Shown here in pieces: positions 2,079 to 7,047 of a stretch of 7,275 nt of DNA. A program made the position numbers and the translations under genes. Positions within the stretch are counted from its first letter, which is position 1. Every line of letters begins with the position of its first letter. The stretch is from Fidelibacterota bacterium (GTDB taxonomy: Bacteria; Fidelibacterota; UBA8477). Where the stretch lies: the NCBI GenBank assembly GCA_021734045.1, contig JAIPJR010000103.1, positions 1-7,275 of the forward strand, written 5' to 3'. The notes beneath the pieces were generated by a model that saw nothing but the letters and a program-made list of their open reading frames with translations, was not told where the DNA came from and made no database searches.

Positions 2079-2315
2079 ATGTTTGACACAGCCATGACTG
2101 AACTCACCTTCGGTCGCGTATGGGGGCCGTTGATTTATTTGTATGGTGTGGGAGGCATCTTTTTTCTAGCCGGGATGATTATCTCTACCCGGAGTAAATC
2201 GCTCAATATCAAGACACGAAACGGCAAAAAGTGGTTTAAGCTGCTTTTATTTGGCTATGGTTGGTACCTGTTCATTCACACATCGCTGACCCTGGCAGCG
2301 CTCTACCTGAAATAG
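2079..2315 (+). CDS. Small two-helix membrane protein, putative symporter partner
   Basis: A 78-residue predicted inner-membrane protein with no family I can name. Two hydrophobic segments are clear: about residues 14-35 (starting VWGPLIYLYGVGGIFFLAG) and about 53-77 (starting FKLLLFGYGWYLFIHTSL). The connecting loop, residues 36-52, is strongly basic (R38, K40, K45, R47, K50, K51), so by the positive-inside rule both termini face the periplasm. The start is taken as ATG 2079 because AAGGAG (2065-2070) is 8 bases upstream; an in-frame TTG at 2073 is too close to that site. It ends 13 bases before the symporter ATG. SSS transporters are known to be encoded next to small membrane proteins (YjcH with ActP, YhdT with PanF), so a partner role is a reasonable inference, but the sequence shows no specific resemblance to those that I can establish. 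Confidence 0.82.
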   Translation: MFDTAMTELTFGRVWGPLIYLYGVGGIFFLAGMIISTRSKSLNIKTRNGKKWFKLLLFGYGWYLFIHTSLTLAALYLK

Positions 2316-2328
2316 TGAGGTTGATTCC

Positions 2329-4251
2329 ATGTCTATGACAATACCCTGGATAGTAATGGTGCTGTACTTCATTCTGGTAATGGGGTTCGGCAGCATGTTC
2401 GGTCGCTATACAAAATCCACAGCAGATTTCTTTTTCGGCGGAAGACGCTTTGCCTGGTGGCTTATTGCCATGTCCATTCTGGCCACCGGCGTAGGCTCTC
2501 ATTCATTTGTGAAATACTCCGCCAAAGCTTTTCAGCACGGTTTTTCATCCACCATGACCTACATGAATGACTGGTTTTTCATGCCATTTTTTATGTTTGG
2601 CTGGTTGCCGTTAATCTATTACTCCCGCGTCTCCTCAGTGCCGGAATATTTCCAGCGCCGGTTTAACTATAAAGCCCGTTTTCTGGCCACTGTAGCGCTT
2701 TTCTTTTACATGATTGGCTACATTTCAATCGGATTCCTGACGATTGGAAAAGCACTGCAGCCCATGCTGCCCGATTTCCTGAATCTATTCGGTTTACATA
2801 TTACCCTGATTGGTGATACCGGGCTTATGAATATCATCATATTTGTCGCCATTATTACCGGTATCTATATCACCTACGGCGGTCAGACAGCGGTAATATT
2901 TACTGACCTGTTGCAGGGTTTTATCCTCATTTTTGCGGGACTGCTGGTCTTGTTTCTGGGATTTTCCTACCTGGGAGGTTTTGCCAACTTTTGGCATCAT
3001 TTACCAGAACATTTCAAATTACCTCTGGCGCACTTTAATCAACCGGCAGGCTTTAATTTCGTGGGCATATTCTGGCAGGATGGCATTGCCGGTTCAATTG
3101 GATTCCTGTTCATGAATCAGGGCTTGATCATGCGTTTCCTAGCCACCCGTTCAGTGGAAGATGGCAAGAAAGCGGCTGCATTTAACGTGCTTGTTATTCT
3201 ACCGATTTCAGCCATTGTTGTGAGCGGCGCCGGCTGGATTGGCCACGCCATTTACCAGGGACAGGGGATCGTTCCCGGCATTCCCGCGGGTATTATCCCC
3301 CCCACGCTGGATGTGGATGAAATTTTCACCATCGCTGCCCGGATTGTCGCCACGCCCATTGTGTTTGGCTTTATCATGGCTGCAGTGACAGCAGCCTTAA
3401 TGTCCACGGTGGATACATTAATTAACGCAACCGCAGCGATTTTTATAAATGACATCTGGCTGCCGGCAGAACGTGTCCTCATCAGACGGAGCAACGGCTC
3501 TCGCTTGCAGAAGGACGATCGTTATTACCTGAAAGTTGCCCGATGGGCATCCATGGTGATTACAACGGTTGGCGTGCTGGGGGTGCTCGCCTTCAAGAAC
3601 TTTGCCACGCTGTATGAGGCGCATGGCTTTTTCCACTCCACCCTGACGCCGCCGCTCATCGTAGCTATATTCCTGGGTATTTTCTGGCGCCGATTCACTG
3701 ATCATGCGGTCATCTGGACATTTCTGGGCGGTGCAACCCTCATGATTGTGGGTGCAACCTGGCCGAGTATTTTTATCACACCATTCGCTCAGGGAAGCGC
3801 CATGTCCGGTGGCAAATACATCTACATCTCTGCACTCTATAATATCGTGGTCTGCGTGGGTGTGGGCGTGATTGTCTCTCTTTTGACAAAGCCGAAAACC
3901 GATAAAGAACTGGAGGGGCTCACCATATGGACGGTGGATCGTGCCCGCTGGCGTTTTAAAGGCGGTAAACCAAATGATCGTCCTGGTGAAAAAGTCAATT
4001 TAAAGTATAAAATTGACGATACCGGTGAGTTTGCCCGTTTCGCGAGAGAGGATATGGAAAAGATGTCGCTGGATGAGGGTGATCTGGTCTATCTGTGTGA
4101 CTCTCGCGCTTGGATGGGTGGCTTGAAATCGGTCCACTCCAAGGCGGGTAAACCCCACAGCGAACCGGGTGTGGTTTACATTACACCGGAGATGGAAGAG
4201 TCGGCGCTATTCACAAAGAAAACCCGCGTCGTGGCCGAGAAGGAGTTGTAA
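2329..4251 (+). CDS. Sodium:solute symporter (SSS family) with soluble C-terminal tail
   Basis: Inner-membrane secondary transporter of the SSS family (TC 2.A.21), expected to couple sodium entry to uptake of an organic solute; the substrate cannot be read from sequence. About thirteen hydrophobic segments occupy residues 5-519, as in the LeuT-fold SSS core. Family signs are the early stretch TADFFFGGRRFAWWLIAMS, SVPEYFQRRFN before the fourth segment, ITYGGQTAVIFTDLLQGF, and AALMSTVDTLINATAAIF with Ser359-Thr360 in the place that forms the Na2 sodium site in characterised members. From Lys521 on, 120 residues are hydrophilic: a region with ITIWTVDRARWRF-like character, then a compact segment EGDLVYLCDSRAWMGGLKSV (about 583-602) and PGVVYI. 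This tail is longer than in a typical bacterial SSS protein. TGAGGT (2315-2320 region) is 8 bases before ATG 2329; ATG 2335 is a possible alternative. The stop codon abuts the next start, implying translational coupling. Confidence 0.93.
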   Translation: MSMTIPWIVMVLYFILVMGFGSMFGRYTKSTADFFFGGRRFAWWLIAMSILATGVGSHSFVKYSAKAFQHGFSSTMTYMNDWFFMPFFMFGWLPLIYYSRVSSVPEYFQRRFNYKARFLATVALFFYMIGYISIGFLTIGKALQPMLPDFLNLFGLHITLIGDTGLMNIIIFVAIITGIYITYGGQTAVIFTDLLQGFILIFAGLLVLFLGFSYLGGFANFWHHLPEHFKLPLAHFNQPAGFNFVGIFWQDGIAGSIGFLFMNQGLIMRFLATRSVEDGKKAAAFNVLVILPISAIVVSGAGWIGHAIYQGQGIVPGIPAGIIPPTLDVDEIFTIAARIVATPIVFGFIMAAVTAALMSTVDTLINATAAIFINDIWLPAERVLIRRSNGSRLQKDDRYYLKVARWASMVITTVGVLGVLAFKNFATLYEAHGFFHSTLTPPLIVAIFLGIFWRRFTDHAVIWTFLGGATLMIVGATWPSIFITPFAQGSAMSGGKYIYISALYNIVVCVGVGVIVSLLTKPKTDKELEGLTIWTVDRARWRFKGGKPNDRPGEKVNLKYKIDDTGEFARFAREDMEKMSLDEGDLVYLCDSRAWMGGLKSVHSKAGKPHSEPGVVYITPEMEESALFTKKTRVVAEKEL

Positions 4252-5253
4252 ATGTTAAATCGCATCCTGCTGATATCCCTGCTGGCAGTGGTATCCATAT
4301 GGTCAGCGGACCGCCAATTCTTCACCACATTCTGGAATGTAGAGAATCTATTTGATACAGTGGACGATCCGCAAACTCGCGATGAGGATTTTACACCAAC
4401 CGAGTCCTATGAATGGACCACCATCCGCCTGCAAACCAAATATCAGATGTTGGCCCAGGTCATCAATCAGATGAACGAAGATCGGGGACCCGACATTCTG
4501 GGTTTGGCCGAGGTAGAACATCGTGGATTAACGGAAGCGCTGGTACGTGGCCACCTGAGGCGGAACTATAAGGTGATTCAGCAGGACTCCCCGGACGAGC
4601 GGGGAATTGACTGTGCCTTATTGTATGATCCGGAAGTAATTCAGTTGAAACGGTACCAGTTCATTCCTATTCCCCTGCCGAATAATGACAAAACCCGGGA
4701 AATCGTGGAAGGTGAGTTTGATGTTGATGGGAATTCCCTGTTTGTCTTCATCAACCACTGGCCATCCCGCTGGGGCGGCACTGCCGAAACCGATCCGAAA
4801 CGACGTTTAGCTGCAGCGACACTTCGTGAAAGGATTGACCTGATTTTGAAAACTAATCCTGCCGCTGATATCCTGATTATGGGTGATTTGAATGACTACC
4901 CGGATAACGGCTCCGTTTTGGAGGTTCTGGCTGCAAAACCAACTCCCAACGCGCTGATTCCGGGGGAATTGTATAACAGCACCTGGCCGATATTTGAGGC
5001 GCAGGGTCAAGGGACATACATGTATCGGGGTGAATGGAATGTGATTGATCATGTGATTGTGTCACAAGGTTTGTTGGATAAAGAACATTTTGTCTGGATG
5101 CCTGGTTCCACTGACCGCTTTCTCCAGCCGTATCAATTACAGCGCTCCGGGAAGTACGCCGGCTATCCATTTCGCATGTATGCCGGCGGAAAATACCTGG
5201 GCGGCTATTCAGACCATTTACCGGTTTTTTGTAAAATCAGATACAACGATTAG
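4252..5253 (+). CDS. Exported endonuclease/exonuclease/phosphatase-family hydrolase
   Basis: A 333-residue metal-dependent phosphoesterase of the EEP (DNase I-like) superfamily. Residues 1-19 form a signal peptide: Asn-Arg, a hydrophobic core LLISLLAVVSI, then a likely SWSA-type cut near residue 19, so the enzyme should work outside the cytoplasm. The catalytic set is complete: WNVENLFD with Asn29, Glu87 in GLAEVE (metal ligand), His169 in FINHWPSRWGG, Asp212 and Asn214 in GDLNDYP, Asp266 in IDHVIVS, and Asp321-His322 in GYSDHLPV. The variant NVENLFD/HWPSR/GDLNDYP is typical of the extracellular-nuclease-like branch, but phosphodiester substrate (DNA, RNA, lipid head group, other) cannot be settled from sequence. 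AAGGAG at 4240-4245 lies inside the end of the symporter gene, 6 bases before this ATG, and the symporter stop TAA directly touches the start, so the two are made together. A terminator follows. Confidence 0.92.
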   Translation: MLNRILLISLLAVVSIWSADRQFFTTFWNVENLFDTVDDPQTRDEDFTPTESYEWTTIRLQTKYQMLAQVINQMNEDRGPDILGLAEVEHRGLTEALVRGHLRRNYKVIQQDSPDERGIDCALLYDPEVIQLKRYQFIPIPLPNNDKTREIVEGEFDVDGNSLFVFINHWPSRWGGTAETDPKRRLAAATLRERIDLILKTNPAADILIMGDLNDYPDNGSVLEVLAAKPTPNALIPGELYNSTWPIFEAQGQGTYMYRGEWNVIDHVIVSQGLLDKEHFVWMPGSTDRFLQPYQLQRSGKYAGYPFRMYAGGKYLGGYSDHLPVFCKIRYND

Positions 5254-5275: not shown

Positions 5276-5303
5276 AAAAAAGGCGGATCTCCCGCCTTTT
5301 TTT
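5276..5303. terminator. Bidirectional intrinsic terminator between convergent operons
   Basis: Stem GGCGG (5282-5286) pairs with CCGCC (5292-5296) around the loop ATCTC. Six A (5276-5281) precede and seven T (5297-5303) follow, so the structure ends transcripts on either strand. It lies 22 bases after the hydrolase stop and 29 bases beyond the stop of the minus-strand reductase gene, and can serve both. Confidence 0.93.
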
Positions 5304-6804: not shown

Positions 6805-7047
6805 TTATACTTTGCGATGAGTCCCGTCGCAAAACGGTTTGGTGCCGGAGTGCTTGCAACCGCACCAGGAAACTTCACGAGCTTCAGCAAAACGCTGAAT
6901 GATCGGTTTAATATCGGTAATCTTATGGGAGCCATCACAGAAGGGTTGATTTTCGGAACGACCGCATGCACACCAAGCATAGGTCTTAGCTTCCACCTTC
7001 ATTTTATAGGGGCCTCTTTGAGCAACTTTAGGTTCTGTCGTAGCCAT
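6805..7047 (-). CDS. Tandem CDGSH iron-sulfur domain protein (CISD3/MiNT-like)
   Basis: An 80-residue protein predicted to bind two [2Fe-2S] clusters. It has two perfect copies of the CDGSH cluster motif C-x-C-x2-S-x3-P-x-C-D-G-(S/T)-H: Cys26, Cys28, Cys37 and His41 in the first, Cys62, Cys64, Cys73 and His77 in the second. Each cluster is held by three cysteines and one histidine, which in known members makes it redox active and pH sensitive. The two-domain order and small size match the MiNT (CISD3) class rather than single-domain mitoNEET. There is no signal peptide or membrane helix, so it is soluble. ATG 7047 has GGGAGG 5 bases upstream and a consensus -10 further up. As first gene of the operon it precedes an acetyltransferase and an NADP(H)-dependent flavoprotein reductase, a possible electron donor. 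Confidence 0.95.
   Translation of the reverse strand: MATTEPKVAQRGPYKMKVEAKTYAWCACGRSENQPFCDGSHKITDIKPIIQRFAEAREVSWCGCKHSGTKPFCDGTHRKV

Follow-up and report, generated by a model that had tools for sequence, protein, structure and literature searches.

A two-helix membrane protein constantly paired with a sodium:solute symporter that carries a C-terminal double-psi beta-barrel

Sodium:solute symporters of the SSS/SLC5 family are mostly viewed as single-protein machines, though several of them have small companions. In E. coli, the gene for the small membrane protein YhdT (DUF997) lies just upstream of that for the pantothenate symporter PanF. YjcH (DUF485) likewise adjoins the acetate symporter ActP. 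In human SGLT2 the small partner is MAP17, which has one membrane helix. Another small companion gene, coding for a DUF3311 protein, adjoins the SSS symporter gene mctP (PMC9100948, figure 1). Additions at the other end of the symporter are also known: in the SSS-STAC sensor kinases (CbrA, CrbS/MxtR) the SSS domain is followed by a C-terminal cytoplasmic STAC-PAS-kinase extension (PMC7918813).

The locus analyzed here encodes a small membrane protein, an SSS symporter with a barrel-shaped tail and a hydrolase. The small protein gene is positioned as in YhdT-PanF, just upstream of the symporter gene, but the two small proteins are unrelated by hhalign, the symporters are 23% identical and a barrel tail is missing from E. 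coli PanF. The likeness to YjcH-ActP also ends with gene order, as YjcH has no detectable sequence relation to our small protein and ActP is only distantly related to our symporter. DUF3311-MctP differs in that the small protein of our locus has no DUF3311 or DUF485 Pfam match. The fold of the symporter is matched best by SGLT1/2 chains whose structures include MAP17, yet the sugar-site residues are not retained, and the small protein has two membrane helices where MAP17 has one. With vSGLT and SiaT it shares the LeuT fold and the Na2-site residues, but it has the added barrel tail, and the sugar ligands of vSGLT are replaced. A C-terminal cytoplasmic extension is common to the symporter and the SSS-STAC kinases, but here it is a lone double-psi barrel. 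The same fold is found in the VCP/Cdc48 N-domain (Z 12-12.7, about 80 residues at about 2 A), although with only 8-19% identity and on an AAA ATPase rather than a transporter. Finally, the hydrolase has the DNase I fold and export in common with the extracellular nucleases ExeM/NucH, but scores 50.7 against the NF033681 cut-off of 300. Two features of this SSS transporter are new: its putative companion subunit belongs to a family with no Pfam entry, and its tail is a double-psi barrel. In open-licence papers we found neither the small protein-symporter pair nor a symporter with a double-psi barrel; within the reach of these searches, such a barrel on a secondary transporter is undescribed.

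The window (the whole stretch of DNA analyzed, 7275 nucleotides, on contig C81) comes from a 2.5-Mb genome of Marinimicrobia (Neomarinimicrobiota). Its three ORFs of interest, all on the plus strand, code for the small protein (78 aa, 2079-2315), the symporter (640 aa, 2329-4251) and the hydrolase (333 aa, 4252-5253). The first-pass annotation had described them as a module of a two-helix protein, an SSS symporter and an exported phosphoesterase, with gaps of 13 and 0 bases, a good ribosome site for each gene and a strong terminator at the end. All three product assignments are borne out by the analyses below, and the ORF coordinates give the same gaps (13 bases between small protein and symporter, 0 between symporter and hydrolase). 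The terminator is also there: a hairpin followed by a T run at 5276-5302 (+) folds at -15.7 kcal/mol, where shuffled sequences average -6.4 (z -4.0). The upstream boundary of the unit is a terminator after tRNA-Pro (1818-1842, +). As for ribosome sites, AAGGAG precedes both the small protein gene (2065-2070, +; 8 nt ahead) and the hydrolase gene (6 nt ahead), and a moderate site, GAGG, lies ahead of the symporter gene. Substitutions relative to the closest relative of the window are mostly synonymous in each gene (23 synonymous and 4 nonsynonymous in the small gene, 259 and 23 in the symporter gene, 137 and 51 in the hydrolase gene). All three ORFs are real genes. A riboswitch search with Rfam in 14 loci matched tRNAs alone. 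Elsewhere in the window, 6808-7047 on the minus strand codes for a small protein that contains two CDGSH iron-binding stretches; next to it lie a GNAT acetyltransferase gene and one for a ferredoxin reductase-like protein.

We then asked how constant this arrangement is across genomes. A scan of GTDB genomes retained 80 symporter loci from Marinimicrobia, Ignavibacteria/Chlorobiota and Planctomycetes. A second, partly overlapping sample of 60 Marinimicrobia relatives, half of them with the symporter and half without, added 30 loci. The small gene lies directly upstream of the symporter gene in 106 of the 110 loci, representing at least three phyla, and in the other four the contig stops just upstream of the symporter. 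Some of the gaps appear negative because ORFs were called from the first possible start codon. Among the relatives, the small protein is present in 29 of the 30 symporter-bearing genomes and in none of the 30 symporter-lacking ones; in the single exception, again, the contig breaks off shortly before the symporter gene. Small-protein and symporter distances are correlated (r 0.75, relatedness included), a correlation that shared descent alone predicts. The gene-neighbourhood check proposed with the initial annotation therefore gives a split answer. The small protein adjoins the symporter wherever upstream sequence is available (106 loci), while the hydrolase, as detailed below, lies beside the symporter in only one of the orders sampled. 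Of the proposed three-gene module, it is thus the first two genes that form the conserved unit; the hydrolase gene adjoins them in a limited lineage.

The hydrolase itself is a clear member of the endonuclease/exonuclease/phosphatase fold (PF19580, Exo_endo_phos_3; 1.3e-94, 317 bits against a cut-off of 27). Among PDB sequences, phmmer found no relatives and a profile search only a weak partial match. Hydropathy places an N-terminal hydrophobic segment at residues 5-19, and N29, E31, E87, H169, D212, N214, D321 and H322, as well as D266, are invariant in 15 homologues. The protein is thus predicted to be exported with a full DNase I-type active site. Within the window's order (G000-G021), its gene adjoins that of the symporter in every one of the 22 genomes that have the symporter. 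Outside that order, none of the eight relatives with a symporter shows this adjacency; in the GTDB scan, 15 of 80 loci do. Conversely, some genomes that lack the symporter have hydrolase homologues. The symporter does not depend on the hydrolase.

These data bear on the proposal that the locus is a scavenging module: a phosphorylated or nucleic-acid source would be cleaved by the exported hydrolase, and the solute set free would enter the cell through the symporter. The complete adjacency within the order makes a local functional link possible, and the export segment and intact active site suit such a role. The phosphate ABC operon that adjoins the pair in several Ignavibacteria is loosely compatible with it. 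However, with the hydrolase confined to one order and also occurring without the symporter, the idea that it feeds the symporter is left weak. In addition, the operon of a sister family (L057, L058, L061 and L099), which has the same small protein, symporter and hydrolase genes, continues directly into glgA and glgC-like genes, for glycogen synthase and glucose-1-phosphate adenylyltransferase, and glycogen synthesis is a different theme. As an account of the locus we consider scavenging unlikely.

The small protein has two hydrophobic segments by hydropathy (18-36 and 55-73) and the family motif F..xWlPxxYLYGvGGxxFxxG ... HxxWxxxLxFG ... H ... AAL. It matches no Pfam family, and none of 34 homologues has a Pfam match to DUF997/YhdT, DUF485/YjcH, DUF4212 or DUF3311; DUF4212 was also absent from 20 relatives in which it was sought. 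Homology to YhdT or YjcH was considered and rejected, with hhalign negative for both. Because the loop between the helices is basic and would stay inside, both ends of the protein are predicted to be outside. Extra copies without an intact symporter of their own occur beside a complete pair in several loci (L064:8201-8413, L075:8281-8493, L089:8769-8996 and L088:5284-5789).

Natural fusions of the two proteins were also detected. The first came to light as a weak genome-wide match of the small protein (7e-6) within the reading frame of a second symporter paralogue in genome G048, where a 590-aa ORF has the hairpin at its N-terminus and the SSS domain behind it. We searched 245 Marinimicrobia genomes with a second fused protein as a query. 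The hairpin and the symporter share one open frame of about 590-719 aa in six genomes, which represent at least four families. Profile comparison by hhalign relates the fused N-terminus to the small-protein family (E 2.5e-6, probability 89%). Two further candidates were rejected, as the ORF in L046 is an unrelated distant symporter and the small gene in L178 is separate. The C-terminal barrel is kept in five of the six fused proteins. The exception, L176:2216-3988 (-), indicates that the barrel is dispensable in the clade of fused paralogues; a glycerophosphodiester phosphodiesterase-like ORF, annotated by eye, lies convergent to this gene at 1183-2199.

Fusions of this kind are classical evidence of a physical complex and would argue for one here, with the caveat that the fused genes all fall in a single, diverged clade of paralogues (about 40-45% identity to the symporter of the window) and so may go back to one event. 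The N-terminus of SSS proteins is external, and the outward ends predicted for the small protein would therefore suit fusion at this point. A small hydrophobic hairpin made just ahead of the symporter could instead be a transient insertion or folding factor, a co-translational helper leaving no lasting subunit, and the gene order fits. We regard this reading as very unlikely, since the in-frame fusions fix the hairpin permanently on the symporter. Taken together, pairing, co-occurrence and fusions provide strong comparative evidence that the small protein and the symporter would form a two-subunit transporter. Their constant pairing across phyla and the fusions also make them a clean system for asking what SSS companions do.

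The symporter matches the Pfam SSF family well above the gathering score (3.4e-39, 135.3 bits against 22.8). Its AF2 model (pLDDT 88) has a LeuT-type fold matching SGLT, SiaT, NIS, CHT1 and SMCT1. In a pairwise alignment with vSGLT, S359 and T360 fall on the Na2 hydroxyls S364 and S365, and D193 on D189. Across 44 diverse members S359 is invariant and T360 at least 90% conserved. By contrast, the sugar ligands Q69, E88, K294 and Q428 of vSGLT correspond to S59, D81, L288 and G433 (one pairwise alignment), and the solute is predicted not to be bound as vSGLT binds sugar. About 100 alignment columns are invariant in the 44 members, so a single specialised substrate is likely. The symporter was found in 134 of the 245 Marinimicrobia genomes sampled, among them strongly reduced genomes (about 0.7-1 Mb). 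Its solute therefore probably matters to abundant uncultured marine bacteria.

The C-terminal region of the symporter (residues ~556-640; 3994-4248, +) is predicted to be cytoplasmic and, by AF2 strand order, is made of two interlocked beta-beta-alpha-beta units; modelled alone it also reaches a pLDDT of 88. Both Foldseek and VIA match it to double-psi barrels of the VCP type, the best match being 7dww (VIA Z 12.7, rmsd 1.8 A, 79 residues), and weak CDC48_N Pfam matches are detected in 9 of 30 members. A domain-profile search of the 60 genomes located the barrel solely on this symporter, in all 30 genomes that have it. Strongly conserved polar positions suggest that the barrel may bind a ligand or contact the transporter. 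Most likely, we infer, it is a regulatory or ligand-sensing domain.

Overall, the locus is probably best explained as coding for a two-subunit, sodium-driven SSS/SLC5 transporter that has a small partner and a barrel tail, with the hydrolase as an order-specific addition. The LeuT-fold symporter would import a small polar solute on the sodium gradient. The dedicated two-helix protein may pack against the N-terminal side of the symporter and would be needed for its assembly, stability or activity, while the cytoplasmic barrel would regulate the symporter or sense a ligand. The order to which the window belongs has gained an exported phosphodiesterase of the DNase I fold downstream of the pair; it is probably co-transcribed and may be linked to transport. 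A more specific version, in which the barrel senses the solute or a metabolite derived from it and thereby gates sodium symport, making the pair with its obligate two-helix subunit a feedback-controlled SLC5 transporter, is offered tentatively.

As for the identity of the solute, one lead was that the pair transports pantothenate, or a related vitamin, with sodium and is analogous to PanF and its small partner YhdT. PanC is encoded in 4 of the 30 symporter-bearing and 25 of the 30 symporter-lacking Marinimicrobia (Fisher 7e-8). Furthermore, the symporter gene of Planctomycetes (L083, L084, L087 and L093) is followed 3-7 bases downstream by a convergent PanB gene, and CoaD neighbours the pair in Ignavibacteria. 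The lead failed its controls, though. In the same 60 genomes NadA shows nearly the same pattern (3 of 30 against 20 of 30), so that the PanC pattern is a sign of vitamin auxotrophy in general. PanB, PanC and NadA are also all retained in many Ignavibacteria and Planctomycetes that have the symporter. Both controls used single E. coli sequences joined in one query, which is less sensitive than profiles. The symporter also scores 55.1 bits against the TIGR02119 (PanF) cut-off of 328, and its identity to E. coli PanF is 23%. Pantothenate was thus demoted to a weak lead, and we consider it highly improbable. Among the Marinimicrobia genomes G000-G059, the joint lack of PanB, PanC and NadA in the symporter-bearing families is an observation of its own that points to multiple vitamin auxotrophy.

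The least probable reading, phosphate-linked nutrition or sensing with the barrel sensing a phosphorylated metabolite, draws on a pst operon divergent beside the pair in at least seven Ignavibacteria-type loci (L044, L064, L066, L078, L088, L090, L091, L105), on the phosphodiesterase downstream in the window and on the phosphodiesterase-like ORF beside the one fused paralogue, but this theme is suggestive only, as the pair has different neighbours in different phyla (oceanic Marinimicrobia have HIT and EF-G-like genes there, Planctomycetes PanB) and a coarse PhoB-box-like pattern was absent upstream in eight pst-linked loci. In four marine loci (L067-L069 and L071), a tryptophan 2,3-dioxygenase gene lies about 45 bases downstream of the symporter gene.
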